DNA from: a bacterium
GTDB lineage: Bacteria; Bdellovibrionota_C; UBA2361; SZUA-149
NCBI GenBank assembly: GCA_030433295.1
Contig: JAUIMJ010000003.1
Coordinates: 1-51,118 of the forward strand
DNA: 51,118 bases
Direction: 5' to 3'
The position numbers and the translations under genes are program-made. Shown one piece after another: positions 13,265 through 36,255 of this stretch. Within the stretch, counting starts at the first letter, position 1, and each line of letters begins with the position of its first letter. The notes below the pieces were generated by a model. It had not been told where the DNA came from, did not search any database, and saw only the letters and a program-made list of their open reading frames with translations.

Positions 13265-14212
13265 CTAGATTGCTTCCGGGGATGCAGGGTCCAGACTGAG
13301 CAGTCGATTTTTCTCGAGTGCCGATATCTGCCTCATCATTCCCGCATCCGAGCGCTTTGCGGTCGGAGCAAAAAAGCCCAGCACACCTAACCAGATTCCC
13401 CCCAGGCAGAGAAGGTCTTCCGGCTGTACGGCTTCGCCAAATGCCGCGACAGCGACCAGCCACATCAGCGTTGGCAGCAAGTAGGATGCGAGACCCATGC
13501 ACTGCATGGATACCTGCGGGGCTGCACGAAGCAACATCACCATGGGAATGACCGTTATTGCACCAGAGATGAGCAATAGAACGTTTTCGGCATTTGTATC
13601 ACCCCAGAAAGATGGACGGGCGAATCCCTCGCCCGCTACCTGTCCGAGCGCGAGGGCCGATACCACCATGAAACAGCATTCGAAAAACAGACCAGCGACG
13701 GGGCAGGGCTTGTTGATTTTCCGAATGAGTATATACGTGGCAAATGAGCCACCCAGAACCAGGGCGATCCAGGGGAAGACACCGAGCTGCAAGACCTTCA
13801 GTGCGACTGATGCCGCTATCACCATGAGGGCGAGCTGCTTGCGTCGCGCCAGCTTCTCTCGGAGGAACAAGGCGCCCAGTATGATGTTAAACAGGGGAAG
13901 GAGAAAGTAGCCGAGGCTCGCTTCCATCACGCGCCCCTGAGCGATAGCCCAGAGGTAGGTGTGCCAGTTGATCGCAAGCAAAGCAGAAGAAGCCAGTATG
14001 GCAACAATGTTCTTTCTGTTTTTTAGTATCTGCCGGAGTCCCTCTCTGTGTTTTGACAATATCATGAGCAGCATAAGAGCAGACCACAGGGCTCGGTGGA
14101 TCAATATGCGCTCTGCCGGCGTCTCCTGTAAGAGCTTCCAGAATAAGGGGGATACTCCCCAGATTACATTTGCCGCCAGCACCCAGAGTATAGCGTGTCT
14201 GTTCGTGTTCAC
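13265..14212 (-). CDS. rarD: RarD-like EamA/DMT-family permease
   Basis: 315 residues with about ten hydrophobic helices arranged as two EamA repeats, so an inner-membrane transporter of the drug/metabolite superfamily. The RarD signature is present: ANVIWGVSPLFWKLL near the N-terminus, LIHRALWSALMLL, and NWHTYLWAIAQGRVMEASLGY in the first repeat. RarD proteins are poorly characterised and annotated from a chloramphenicol-sensitivity phenotype; the substrate is unknown. GTG start with GGAG 8 nt upstream. A copy of the intergenic palindromic repeat family lies just upstream of the start, where it would be in the promoter or leader region. Confidence 0.9.
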   Translation of the reverse strand: MNTNRHAILWVLAANVIWGVSPLFWKLLQETPAERILIHRALWSALMLLMILSKHREGLRQILKNRKNIVAILASSALLAINWHTYLWAIAQGRVMEASLGYFLLPLFNIILGALFLREKLARRKQLALMVIAASVALKVLQLGVFPWIALVLGGSFATYILIRKINKPCPVAGLFFECCFMVVSALALGQVAGEGFARPSFWGDTNAENVLLLISGAITVIPMVMLLRAAPQVSMQCMGLASYLLPTLMWLVAVAAFGEAVQPEDLLCLGGIWLGVLGFFAPTAKRSDAGMMRQISALEKNRLLSLDPASPEAI

Positions 14213-14234
14213 CTTTTTTCTCCACTGCGTACGA

Positions 14235-14320
14235 GCGCGGACCTACGTCCGCGCGGAAAACGAGAAGCTGGAGCAGTCACGGAATAAAATCCTCTGATGA
14301 TTATCCGAAGGCTGCTTCAG
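14235..14320 (+). repeat. Palindromic intergenic repeat, copy 1 (hairpins 2 and 3)
   Basis: Contains the perfect hairpin GCGCGGAC-CTAC-GTCCGCGC (14235-14254), then a GGAAAACGAGAAG linker and the long third hairpin of the family (GGAGCAGTC...GGAATAA...TTATCCGAAGGCTGCTTC). The first hairpin of the family is missing or decayed. Same order and spacing as the copies at 26182 and 34771. Lies in the leader region of rarD. Confidence 0.8.
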
Positions 14321-24271: not shown

Positions 24272-26185
24272 ATGCCTACATCGGAGCCATTCATTTCAAA
24301 TCTTGACGAATACCTCTTTTCAGAGGGGACCCATTTGCGCACCTACGAAAAACTGGGTGCTCACTTCGTTGAGGTAGATGGTGTGCGTGGTATTCAGTTC
24401 AGTGTCTGGGCGCCGAATGCCCGACGCGTTTCCGTTGTCGGAGATTTCAATAACTGGGACGAGACGCAGGCGCCCATGCAGAGTGTGGCCTCTACCGGCG
24501 TCTGGACTACTTTTGTTCCCGGTGTGAGGCAGGGGCAGTCCTATAAGTTTGCTATTCACTCGCACGTCAACGACTACCACATGCTCAAGATTGACCCTTA
24601 CGCCTTCTACGCTGAGGCACCACCGCGCTCGGCGTCGGTCGTTTGGAATCTTGAAGGGTACGATTGGGGTGATCAGAAATGGATGGAAGAACGTGCTGAG
24701 CGTCAGGCACACGACAAGCCTTTGTCCATTTACGAAGTACACCTGGGATCCTGGCGGCGTAATCCCAATGAGAACAATCGTTCACTTACCTATCGGGAAA
24801 TGGCCGATGAGTTGGTGGAGTACGTCTCCTACATGGAATTCACCCATGTCGAGTTTCTGCCGGTAACCGAACATCCGTTTGATGGCTCCTGGGGATATCA
24901 GTCGCTCTGCTATTTTGCACCGACTAGTCGATTCGGAACGCCACAGGATTTCATGTATCTGGTCGATCGTTTACATCAGGCGGGAATTGGCGTGATTATC
25001 GATTGGGTTCCCGCTCATTTTCCGGTCGATGAGCATGGACTCGGCTTCTATGACGGGACCCATCTTTTTGAGCATGCCGATGAGCGCCAGGGTTTTCATC
25101 CGGATTGGAAAACATACATTTTCAATTTTGGCAGGACCGAGGTTGCGAACTTCCTCCTTGCGAGCGCACTGTTCTGGTTTGAGAAATATCATATCGATGG
25201 AGTCAGAGTAGATGCCGTAGCCTCTATGCTGTATTTGGATTACTCCCGGAAAGAGGGGGAGTGGATACCCAATGAGTATGGGGGTAATGAGAACCTTGAA
25301 GCGATTAATTTCATAAAGCGCTTCAATGAGGTCGTGCACGAGAAGCATCCGGGAATTATCACCATCGCCGAGGAGTCCACCGCATGGCCGATGGTCTCTC
25401 GGCCTACGTATTTAGGGGGCCTTGGCTTTGGTTTCAAGTGGAACATGGGGTGGATGCACGATATGCTGGAGTATTTTGCGAAAGATCCGGTTCATAGACA
25501 TTACCACCACAACAATCTGACGTTTGGCTTGCTCTACGCATTCCATGAGAATTTTGTCTTGCCACTATCTCATGACGAAGTCGTGCATGGTAAGGGCTCT
25601 CTGCTCAGCAAGATGCCGGGCGATCCCTGGCAGAAGTTTGCCAACCTGCGCTTGTTGTACTCATACATGTGGGCGCATCCCGGAAAGAAACTCTTGTTCA
25701 TGGGAGGTGAACTGGGGCAGTGGACCGAATGGAATTCAGCTGACAGCCTTCCGTGGCATTTAGTTGAAGAGTCTTCGCATCAGGGTCTGCAACGCATTGT
25801 GAAAGATCTCAATGGCGTTCTGAGTGCTGAACCCGCGCTTCACGGTGTAGATTTTGACAGCTCGGGGTTTCGCTGGATTGATTGCAATGACAGTTCGCAG
25901 AGCATATTGAGCTTCATTCGATATGCCGACGATAGTCGAGATGCGGTTGTCTGTGTTTTTAACTTTACTCCCGTGCCCCGCTACAACTATCGGGTAGGGG
26001 TACCGCATGAAGGCTATTGGCTCGAGCTGCTCAACAGTGATGCGAGTATGTATCACGGAAGTGGCCTGGGGAATATGGGAGGCGTGGTTGCGGAATCACA
26101 TGCCATGCACGGTCTTCCTTTTTCGATAAGTCTGACGCTCCCACCCCTAGCGGCGCTTTATTTCAGGCTGAACAAATCAGACTAG
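24272..26185 (+). CDS. glgB: 1,4-alpha-glucan branching enzyme
   Basis: 637 residues, GH13. Introduces alpha-1,6 branches into glycogen. The N-terminal CBM48 ([24 protein letters not shown]) leads into the catalytic barrel: region [19 protein letters not shown] with the nucleophile Asp, ITIAEEST with the catalytic Glu, and [14 protein letters not shown] with the third carboxylate. Lacks the extra N1 domain of the longest forms, giving the shorter type. The start is supported by GGGAGGAAT directly before the ATG. Its TAG stop is supplied by the left edge of a palindromic repeat (CTAGAGCAGTC). With glgX and malQ it forms an alpha-glucan remodelling set; glgA, glgC and glgP are not in the window. 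Confidence 0.97.
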
Positions 26186-26355
26186 AGCAGTCGTAGGATA
26201 AAATCGCACTGGGTTATCCGAAGACTGCTCTAGAGCATTTTTCAATAAAGCGAAGCGAAAAATGCTTATGAGCGCGGACGCAAGTCCGTGCGGGAGAAGA
26301 GAAGGTAGAGCAGTCGTAGGATAAAATCGTACCACTTTATCCGAAGACTGCTCTA
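26182..26355 (+). repeat. Palindromic intergenic repeat, copy 2 (composite, most complete)
   Basis: Starts at the glgB stop codon. Order: hairpin 3 (26182-26233, CTAGAGCAGTC...GACTGCTCTAG with internal GGATAAA/TTATCC pairing), hairpin 1 (GCATTTTTC 26235-26243 with GAAAAATGC 26257-26265), hairpin 2 (GCGCGGAC-GCAA-GTCCGTGC, 26272-26291), then hairpin 3 again (26306-26355, TAGAGCAGTC...GACTGCTCTA). The two hairpin-3 units are nearly identical in the arms but differ in the loop. Fills the gap between glgB and malQ. Confidence 0.9.
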
Positions 26356-26500
26356 CAATAGCAGTTCCGCAGATTGATGGTTTGGGGTAGATATCCTTAA
26401 GGTGAACTAACTTCTGGGGAAATGAATGTTCCGCGTAAACAGTATTCGTCCTCTTTCCGATGGCGAAAGGGGTCTTTGGGCCGCACATGGGGGGCTGTAG

Positions 26501-31192: not shown

Positions 31193-31316
31193 CCGGAACA
31201 GTTTTCGGATTTTTGTCGCGACAATGTATCCGTCGAACCGCTCTGGTTTTTCTATTCCCGCGTGGATGTACAATCCGCGCTGGTACGCATTCTTCACGAG
31301 GCTTTTTGAAAAATGC
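31193..31316 (-). repeat. Palindromic intergenic repeat, copy 3 (degenerate, minus strand)
   Basis: Read on the minus strand the order is hairpin 1 (GCATTTTTC...GAAGAATGC), hairpin 2 (AGCGCGGATTGTACATCCACGC), a GGGAATAGAAAAACC linker and a decayed hairpin 3 (AGAGCGGTTCGACGGATAC...ATCCGAAAACTGTTCC). The module order and linker match copies 2 and 4, with many base changes. It sits about 40 nt upstream of the epimerase start. Confidence 0.75.
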
Positions 31317-31997
31317 GCCAGAGTCTTCCACATTCTTTCTATAACTACTGTATATATCGGCACTTTGGCCCATTCTCTTTATTTAGTAATTTACTGTGTT
31401 TGTCGGACGTGGAATTGACGATATTTCGTCGGTCTGTGCTGTGGCTTTTGGCGCTGAACAGAAGGTGATTTTGACTCGCAGCGGTATGTTTCGGCCTTCA
31501 TTGGGCCCGGATTATGGCGTTGTGACAAAATTTTTACACCGCACTTTTTTCAAACTACAGCAAAATGCTGTCCAACAATGTACACAAATTTTGGGGTGTC
31601 TGTATTCTGACGCCGAGCGTCCAATTATTAAGCAGTGCCTGAAATGTGCCGACATCCACGCCCCGGACTACTCGGAAATACCGTTTTCGTAATTAAAATC
31701 CAATAGTTAGCCTCAAGGCCTCCAGCCACCTCAGTCCCGAGCTGCAAGGAGGATGAAGAGGGGTGTCGGAATTCTGTCACTTTCCCGAACACTGGCATGT
31801 CCTTTGCCATTTCTCTGACACCGGACGCGTTGGCCTGAATCTTTACGTGTCCATTTTTTGGCAGGGTGCATCAATACTCTCTGTGGATGCCAATTTCCCG
31901 TTTCTGCGGTGGAGCATTCACGAGAAAAGATTTTTGAGTTTATTGGTGCTGTGCGAATCCTTAGGGAATGTAACGGTTAATTAGGAGGCAGGTTTTC
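31317..31997. other. Intergenic region upstream of the flagellar regulatory operon
   Basis: About 680 bp between the epimerase leader and the sigma-54 activator gene. No credible gene; the 98-codon plus ORF near 31396 lacks a ribosome site. It contains a strong sigma-54 promoter match at 31793 and a partial dyad TGTCGGA ... TCTGACA (about 31763-31825) around it. Confidence 0.5.
31793..31808 (+). promoter_or_regulatory. Sigma-54 (-24/-12) promoter upstream of the first activator gene
   Basis: TGGCATGTCCTTTGCC matches the TGGCACG-N4-TTGCW consensus in nearly all fixed positions, with the required GG-N10-GC spacing. It lies about 190 nt upstream of the activator ATG. Activity is inferred. Confidence 0.7.
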
Positions 31998-34054: not shown

Positions 34055-34774
34055 ATGGCCCCTGCAACATCGGGTTCAGTTGAATCGGAACGAGCAAAGC
34101 GTCTCATTGCGATGGGGCAAATGGCTGCGAGCCTTGCCCATGAGATTAGGAATCCTCTGGGGAGCATGGAGCTCTATTGCACGCTTCTGAAAAAAGATTT
34201 GGCGACCCAGAGTGAGTCCCTGCAGCTCGCTGAGCAGATACACTCGGGGATACGGACGCTTGATCGGATCATTACGAATTGCCTGCAGTTCTCAAGAGAC
34301 GTTAAGCCGCGCTACGTTGAGGTTGATTCAACCGAAGGAATTTTCAGCGAGATAGTTTCCTATGTGAAACCTCAGCTCGCTGCCGGAACCTTGGGAATCA
34401 CGGTAGAGGAGGAGGGAGATAGTCAGTTGGTAATCGATCCTCATCTGGTGAAACAGGCGCTCGCGAATGTGGTGATGAATGCGGTTGAAGCGATGACTGA
34501 TGCCGGAGTAGAGGGAGGAAGTGTGGAGATTAAGAGCGATCGCCGAGATCCTTCAGTGTGGAAAGTCCTGGTGCAGGACGATGGTCCGGGGATTGAGGAA
34601 GAGAAGCTGGAAACGATTTTTGAACCCTTTGTAACGACGAAGGAAGGAGGTACGGGACTGGGTTTGCCTATCGTACATTCGGTCGTCGCCGCCCATGGCG
34701 GAAAAGTAACCATTGGCAGTAAGTCTCCACATGGCACCACGGTGTCTTTGGAGTTCCCAAATTTTGAGCGCTAG
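34055..34774 (+). CDS. Soluble sensor histidine kinase of the flagellar regulon (FlgS/FleS-like)
   Basis: 239 residues with no membrane segment and no recognised sensor domain. The dimerisation and phospho-acceptor motif is SLAHEIRNPLGSME (His29), followed by the ATPase domain with N box VVMNAVEA, G1 DDGPGIEE and G2 GGTGLGLPIVHS. It presumably phosphorylates the NtrC-type regulator encoded next. A cytoplasmic kinase lacking a sensor fits FlgS of epsilonproteobacteria and FleS of Pseudomonas, which respond to assembly of the flagellar export gate. ATG 34055 has GGAGGAG upstream. The TAG stop is the left edge of palindromic repeat copy 4, which separates it from its partner. Confidence 0.92.
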   Translation: MAPATSGSVESERAKRLIAMGQMAASLAHEIRNPLGSMELYCTLLKKDLATQSESLQLAEQIHSGIRTLDRIITNCLQFSRDVKPRYVEVDSTEGIFSEIVSYVKPQLAAGTLGITVEEEGDSQLVIDPHLVKQALANVVMNAVEAMTDAGVEGGSVEIKSDRRDPSVWKVLVQDDGPGIEEEKLETIFEPFVTTKEGGTGLGLPIVHSVVAAHGGKVTIGSKSPHGTTVSLEFPNFER

Positions 34775-34895
34775 AGCATTTTTCAGGGATGCGTAGCGAA
34801 AAATGCATATGAGTGCGGACGCAGGTCTGTGCGAGAAAAACAGAAGAGCAGTTGCAGGATACCATCTTGCTACAGGTATTCGAGAGCTGCTCTAG
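34771..34895 (+). repeat. Palindromic intergenic repeat, copy 4, between kinase and regulator genes
   Basis: Begins CTAGAGCA at the kinase stop. Hairpin 1 is GCATTTTTC (34776-34784) with GAAAAATGC (34798-34806), hairpin 2 is GTGCGGACGCAGGTCTGTGC (partly decayed), and hairpin 3 is AGAGCAGTTGCAGGATA ... TATTCGAGAGCTGCTCT, ending CTAG at 34895. It runs right up to the ribosome site of the regulator gene. Confidence 0.88.
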
Positions 34896-34908
34896 AAGAG
34901 AGGTCGTA

Positions 34909-36255
34909 ATGCAGGAAAGATCAACAATCCTTGTCGTGGATGACGAAGAGCAGATGCGCTCGGCCATGGAGGCGGTGCTGGCCCGTATGGGACACTCTGT
35001 GATCAAAGCGGTAAACGGCAGTGATGCTCTGGAGAAGCTTGAGCAGAGCAAAGTAGACGTCGTTATCTCGGATATGAAAATGCCCGTGATGACCGGGGGG
35101 GAGCTGCTTGCTCAGATAAAAGAGAATCATCCAGGTATTCCTACGGTGATGATTACGGCGTACGGAACGATTGAACAGGCTGTCGAAGTGATGAAAGACG
35201 GTGCCTTTGATTTTGTTACCAAGCCCTTCTCCGCCGAAGATCTCGAGGGAGTGATTTCGCGAGCGACATCCAAGGGGAGAAAAATTCCGACCAAAAAAGC
35301 CTCGTCGATCAGTCAGGACGCGGTTGCGATTGTGACCGGAGATCCGACCTTCAAGCGAGTTCTGGAGATTGCGGTAAGTGTTGCAAGCAGCTCTGCCAGC
35401 GTGCTGGTTCAGGGAGAGTCTGGGACCGGTAAAGAACTCATTGCCCGTCTCTTGCATACCAGCGGCAAGCAGGACAACGAACCTTTTGTGGCCGTCAACT
35501 GCGCTGCGCTGCCCGAGAATCTGCTGGAAAGCGAGCTGTTTGGGCATGAGAAGGGAGCATTTACGGGTGCGACGGCTACCAAAATCGGAAAGTTCGAGCA
35601 GGCCAACGGTGGTACCATACTCCTCGATGAGATTTCCGAGATGGAATTGCCCCTGCAGGCGAAGCTTCTGCGTGTCCTGCAGGAAAGAGAGGTGGATCGT
35701 ATTGGTGGTACAAAACCAATTCCCGTCGATGTGCGAGTTGTCGCTACGACGAACAGAGACATTCGTCAGACCGTAGCGAAGGGCGATTTTAGAGAAGATC
35801 TCTACTATCGACTTAATGTAATTCCGTTGTATGTCCCGTCTCTGCGTGAGCGAAAGGGCGATATTAAGCTTCTCCTGGAGTATTTCATCCGTCGCTTCTC
35901 AAACGGTGCCGCGAAGAAAATCACTGATGCTCAGTTGAAGAAGCTGGAGGACTACGCATGGCCCGGAAATGTGCGGGAATTGCAGAATGCCTGTCAGCGG
36001 GCCGTCTTGCTGGCGCAGGATGGCGACCTGCAAGCCGAGCATTTTCTGCTCGGGGCTATTGATTCCACTCAGGAGTCTGAGGGTGACGATTCTCTGCGCC
36101 TGCGCTCGGGATTGAGCGTCGCTGAGGCAGAGAAGAGATTGATTCTCGAGACCCTGCGAGTCACGAACAATAATAAAACGAAAGCGGCGGAGTTGCTGGG
36201 GATAAGTATCAGGACCCTGCGTAACAAACTGCACGAGTATGATGCCCCGCGCTAG
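34909..36255 (+). CDS. NtrC-family response regulator of the flagellar regulon (FlgR/FleR-like)
   Basis: 448 residues in three domains. The receiver (phospho-acceptor in VVISDMKMP, about D55; Lys in FVTKPF) is followed by an AAA+ sigma-54 activator domain (GESGTGKE, GAFTGA, GGTILLDEISEME) and a Fis-type HTH (NNNKTKAAELLGISIRTLRNKLHEY). It should activate the sigma-54 promoters found before flgB and fliK. The ORF track begins 32 codons early inside the palindromic repeat; the true start is ATG 34909 (MQERSTILVVDDEEQ), preceded by GAGAGG. It stands as the last gene of the regulatory operon, with the flgB promoter 62 nt after its stop. Confidence 0.94.
   Translation: MQERSTILVVDDEEQMRSAMEAVLARMGHSVIKAVNGSDALEKLEQSKVDVVISDMKMPVMTGGELLAQIKENHPGIPTVMITAYGTIEQAVEVMKDGAFDFVTKPFSAEDLEGVISRATSKGRKIPTKKASSISQDAVAIVTGDPTFKRVLEIAVSVASSSASVLVQGESGTGKELIARLLHTSGKQDNEPFVAVNCAALPENLLESELFGHEKGAFTGATATKIGKFEQANGGTILLDEISEMELPLQAKLLRVLQEREVDRIGGTKPIPVDVRVVATTNRDIRQTVAKGDFREDLYYRLNVIPLYVPSLRERKGDIKLLLEYFIRRFSNGAAKKITDAQLKKLEDYAWPGNVRELQNACQRAVLLAQDGDLQAEHFLLGAIDSTQESEGDDSLRLRSGLSVAEAEKRLILETLRVTNNNKTKAAELLGISIRTLRNKLHEYDAPR

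Follow-up and report, generated by a model that had tools for sequence, protein, structure and literature searches.

A three-hairpin intergenic repeat whose ends often coincide with stop codons in a bacterial genome

In the stretch of DNA analysed here (51,118 nt, hereafter the window), a group of palindromes begins exactly at the stop codon of glgB, and its modules recur at three other places. The locus raises the question of what kind of element this is, and how it came to lie in such a position without damage to the genes beside it.

Repeat unit and its loci in the window

The repeat unit is about 125 nt long and consists, in this order, of hairpin A, hairpin B, a purine-rich linker and hairpin C, with termini of the CTAG type. 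The consensus of the ordered unit common to the four loci is CTAGAGCATTTTTC..GCGnAGC GAAAAATGC TTnnGAGC RYGGAC nnnn GTCCRYGC GGGAAAAGAGAAG CTAGAGCAGTC GnA GGATAAA..TTTATCC GAA GACTGCTCTAG. As in MITEs, short terminal inverted repeats (6–8 nt) are present, of the form (CTAG)AGCA...TGCT(CTAG).

The three-hairpin repeat is confirmed as real. All four loci (Table 1) could be read directly, and they rank first to fourth in the window against a covariance model of 26 copies run with filters off, although this is not a fully independent test, as the copies at 26230 and 34771 belong to the model. No Rfam family reached its gathering score in the window. The original prediction, that the same modules stand in the same order at the four loci, therefore holds with two corrections to the order. 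The copy at 14235 is without hairpin A, and at 26182 an extra hairpin C leads the unit, so that the order is C-A-B-C.

Table 1. Coordinates of the repeat copies, their modules and the adjoining glgB gene in the window.
Feature	Position	Strand	Remarks
Partial copy retaining B and C, without hairpin A	14232-14320	+	model match 14188-14320, 66.9 bits
glgB	24272-26185		TAG stop 26183-26185
Extra leading hairpin C	26182-26233	+	CTAG 26182-26185 holds glgB TAG stop 26183-26185
Complete unit A-B-linker-C	26230-26356	+	147.7 bits; leading CTAG overlaps end of preceding hairpin C
Hairpin A, 26230 copy	26235-26265	+	arms GCATTTTTC 26235-26243 / GAAAAATGC 26257-26265
Hairpin B, 26230 copy	26272-26291	+	arms GCGCGGAC / GTCCGTGC, 26272-26279 / 26284-26291
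A/G-rich linker, 26230 copy	26292-26306	+	
Hairpin C, 26230 copy	26307-26354	+	outer arms 26307-26315 / 26346-26354
Hairpin C inner arms, 26230 copy	26319-26325 / 26336-26342	+	GGATAAA / TTTATCC
Diverged complete copy A-B-C	31193-31321	-	59.4 bits
Complete unit	34771-34895	+	109.4 bits; between histidine-kinase gene and AtoC-like response-regulator gene

At 34771-34909 the repeat unit stands between a histidine-kinase gene and the gene for the cognate AtoC-like response regulator. The TAG stop of the kinase gene (34772-34774) is the terminus of the unit, and the regulator likely starts at ATG 34909. Given its position between these two genes, the unit is probably transcribed inside an operon.

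Copies, placement and stop-codon register

The window belongs to a metagenome-assembled genome of 4.45 Mb (425 contigs, 86% complete), a fragmented draft of the kind in which contigs are often broken at repeats. With the 26-copy model, 134 matches at E ≤ 0.023 were found in this genome, in 105 clusters on 80 contigs, and 142 at E ≤ 1; since scoring covered 150 of the 2238 candidates, 134 copies is a lower bound. When 40 contigs (372 kb) were sampled systematically, about 8 distinct copies were detected at E < 0.001, two of them absent from the first list. These numbers are consistent with a genome total of roughly 100–200 copies, and the expectation of many copies genome-wide is borne out.

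Outside this genome the family was not recovered. Fourteen genomes from this order gave zero covariance-model matches at E ≤ 1, and in 288 kb taken from three same-family genomes the best match reached only E = 0.79. Among 57 relatives searched, one match at E = 0.009 in a class-level genome (L067), with a degenerate hairpin B and without hairpin C, was set aside as probably due to chance. An exact 22-base pattern from the A/B junction occurred 0 times in approximately 85,000 species genomes and 0 times in IMG/VR, scans from which the genome of the window and its closest neighbours may be missing; a search of plasmids and phages for homologues gave no match. The original prediction had also pointed to Rhizobiales palindromes beginning with AGAGCA. 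No relation to these was found in the exact pattern scan or in 80 loci including several from Rhizobiales, none of which held the TAGAGCA...TGCTCTA palindrome, and together these form a weak test.

Two-sided changes were observed in 13 of 33 arm pairs, compared with a mean of 2.7 in shuffled controls, and none of 500 shuffles reached this value. In the same arm pairs 97.9% of the cells were paired, against 36–50% when the arms were slid, and folding of the best copy as single-stranded DNA yielded z = -7.7. The results support a folded element with conserved or compensated arms, as had been proposed. Quasi-palindrome correction without selection could yield part of the covariation signal. Further copies and an excess of compensatory changes, the two points on which the original prediction was to stand or fall, were thus both found.

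Gene positions were taken from a home-made hexamer gene caller applied to 502 kb around the copies and are approximate. For 83 clusters (matches of at least 40 bits), the mean overlap with coding sequence was 7.6% in a sample that was 79% coding, in agreement with the predicted intergenic bias. Cluster density per kb of gap was 2.4 for convergent, 1.2 for tandem and 0.5 for divergent gaps, and copies were densest 3' of genes. In 17 of 49 tandem-context clusters, both neighbouring genes lay within 100 nt. All 17 multi-copy clusters had a single orientation, the units repeating about every 123 nt. Array neighbours averaged 86% identity (up to 98%), compared with 76% for unlinked copies, which indicates local tandem duplication.

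In 33 of the 83 clusters (about 40%), the overlap between a gene end and the element was exactly 4 nt, which makes the terminal NTAR the stop codon; this count does not include leading hairpin Cs, of which the one at glgB (26182) is an example. A second test used no model boundaries and scored the first 9 bases of the element, with at most 2 mismatches, directly after the stop. Among 406 genes near copies, 41 had an element start at offset 0, against a chance value of about 2 (P ≈ 1e-41), and each of offsets 1–11 accounted for 1–4 genes. The offset-0 stops comprised 33 TAG, 8 TAA and 0 TGA; TGA was thus found at 0/41, compared with 60/310 elsewhere (P = 0.0006). CTAG was present at 18/33 adjacent stops versus 57/310 (P = 1e-5). 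Both ends of the element abutted stops, 13 on the A side and 20 on the C side (P = 0.3).

The genes adjoining the copies are intact and untruncated. GlgB ends at residue 637, where its homologues mostly end at residues 634–640, and a PurH beside a copy ends in RHFRH, the canonical PurH ending. The best matches to this GlgB share about 64–66% identity with it and are spread across several phyla. Random-phase insertion with truncation of gene ends was rejected on the basis of the exact 4-nt overlap, since two of the three phases would stop at element base 18–26 or deeper.

Unusually for bacteria, about 50% of the stop codons in this genome are TAG, making it the commonest of the three. The same holds for two of three same-family genomes from which the repeat is absent, and for this reason the repeat was rejected as the cause of such usage.

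The exact stop-codon register is new here and goes beyond the original prediction. Its novelty is moderate, since GTAG REPs, which lie 3' of genes, have already been reported to supply TAG stops often (Di Nocera 2013, PMC3733652).

Comparison with known repeat families and candidate mobilisers

A REP/BIME- or MITE-like architecture had been suggested for the repeat. The intergenic position, the palindromes and the many copies agree with this; REP-, ERIC- and BOX-like behaviour is supported, while membership in any of these classes is not. The family behaves like GTAG REPs, BOX, ERIC and RUP, and it lacks both tested features that define REP/RAYT systems, the tag and the flanking RAYT.

With GTAG-tagged REPs and BIMEs (PMC3733652) it shares short intergenic palindromes, a 3' bias, frequent species specificity, TAG-supplying termini and clustering, as well as the many extragenic palindromes per genome typical of REPs (at least 134 here). 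It differs in its composite three-hairpin unit and in its head-to-tail arrays. The GTAG tag of REPs lies at one end, whereas here mostly CTAG/NTAR is found at both ends and GTAG is a minority, and no flanking RAYT was found in the 86%-complete genome.

BOX of Streptococcus pneumoniae, boxA-(boxB)n-boxC (PMC3049150), compared by architecture alone, is likewise a composite of ordered hairpin modules with variation in module copy number; in BOX only the middle module is iterated, in contrast to the whole A-B-C unit here. ERIC/IRU/RU-1 (PMC2229807), compared by structure alone, resembles the repeat in length (about 127 bp), intergenic position, palindromic character, TA termini and unknown mobiliser. 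ERIC is, however, a single long 127-bp palindrome, whereas the present unit has three separate hairpins and an exact stop register, with no target-site duplication demonstrated. RUP (about 107 bp, about 108 copies), associated with IS630-Spn1 (PMC2229807, PMC3049150), is similarly MITE-like with TA-containing targets, but its termini match a resident IS, while the IS630 remnants in this genome carry different ends.

No resident autonomous IS with matching ends, as expected for a MITE, was found. The search, which covered only a few IS families, recovered remnants of IS630 (PF13358) and DDE_Tnp_1 (PF01609) whose ends do not match the repeat. Several decayed IS630-type (DDE_3) copies (L148-L151) have ATATACCCCTAAC / TATACTGAGCGC near their ends, and two decayed PF01609 transposase copies (L153 and L154, about 1100-1900) have a conserved flanking palindromic sequence in common. 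Closely spaced copies enclosed no autonomous element; the genes between them were ordinary ones (purH, nadA, thiG, trxB and others, assigned from their sequences alone). No correlated target-site duplication beyond TA was detected, and the TA that many ends share is indistinguishable from the element's own end. At ends that do not serve as a stop, the terminal tetranucleotide was often degenerate, TA being kept at 17/41 A-ends and 18/34 C-ends.

The family would be a REP/BIME-type repeat if it had been spread by a RAYT or TIRYT, an HUH Y1 transposase that would act on hairpins in single-stranded DNA and recognise the tetranucleotide tag NTAG. The NTAG tag does precede both hairpin A and hairpin C, the stop-supplying position matches that reported for GTAG REPs, and six Y1_Tnp matches are present in the genome. 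None of the six, however, is flanked by a well-matching copy; the sole copy near a Y1 gene, 374 bp beyond it, is a degenerate remnant of A and B. Three of the matches were checked and are weakly like NF047646. Two near-identical Y1 (HUH) genes, at L031:1230-2613 and L033:1228-2600, are each bounded by GTATCAG-type terminal inverted repeats, which are unrelated to CTAGAGCA; TIRYT elements of Acidobacteria resemble these two genes (PMC3733652). The tag is, moreover, mostly CTAG and present at both ends, and known families form mostly head-to-head or tail-to-tail dimers and only rarely the head-to-tail arrangement seen here. The RAYT/IS200-type link envisaged in the original prediction was thus not substantiated, and this route of spread is considered unlikely.

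Proposed mode of spread

The reading we prefer, at a probability of roughly 0.6, is a family of lineage-restricted, non-autonomous miniature mobile intergenic repeats that were placed in trans at CTAG/TA sites and formed arrays by tandem duplication.

A rival explanation of the stop-codon pattern is a functional 3' RNA element (an mRNA stabiliser, a control of translation or decay, or a terminator) held beside stop codons by selection. Strong covariation, the 3' bias and hairpins beginning within about 1 nt of the stop are in line with such a role, as is the lowered translation reported where fewer than 16 nt separate a REP from a stop (work cited in PMC12306157). Evidence against pure selection of this kind comes from the lack of TGA stops and of an orientation bias, and the pattern fits CTAG/TA insertion better. 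Copies also lie within an apparent operon (the kinase/regulator pair, 34774-34909) and, in the 17 tightly spaced tandem-context clusters, between close neighbours, and the family is absent from the 14 same-order genomes. Predicted terminators coincided with none of the A-B-C hairpins; a single terminator-like site falls inside a copy (31193-31208, +), in agreement with chance (14 found versus 12.3 expected). A selected 3' RNA element is therefore judged improbable. Spread by recombination, duplication or gene conversion alone, with no history of transposition, would suit the unusually alike array neighbours and the lack of a target-site duplication, but local duplication alone cannot account for more than 80 separate clusters that lie on 80 contigs, have unrelated flanking sequences and keep a precise stop register, so that this reading is highly improbable.

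Under placement in trans, a transposase would cut at TA within CTAG/YTAR. A possible precedent is IS630-type insertion at TA in CTAG. As neither a target-site duplication beyond TA nor a resident transposase with matching ends was found, we infer this step. In coding sequence no tetranucleotide is rarer than CTAG (0.41 per kb), yet CTAG accounts for 18% of stop contexts, so insertion at the TA of CTAG/YTAR would mostly be tolerated in intergenic positions and at stops. At a stop codon, insertion would regenerate the stop and leave the protein intact. Arrays would then have grown through local tandem duplication and not through new insertions. The transposase may be lost, or may be encoded in the unassembled part of the genome (about 14%), and most copies look old and decaying. 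In transcribed copies, the hairpin that immediately follows the stop may have a secondary effect on translation or on mRNA decay.

A more specific idea is put forward only tentatively, namely that stop codons may serve as a safe harbour. The element would land on TA-type stops (CTAG/YTAR, never TGA), regenerate the stop and amplify between housekeeping genes without harming them, and its tag class would be distinct from the GTAG and CGTC REP superfamilies.

How small non-autonomous repeats spread through dense bacterial genomes without harm is poorly understood. The family suggests a rule, a TA/CTAG target that is rare within genes and common at gene ends, with TGA excluded, which could be examined in further families of repeats, among them the GTAG REPs, for which a supply of stop codons has been reported.
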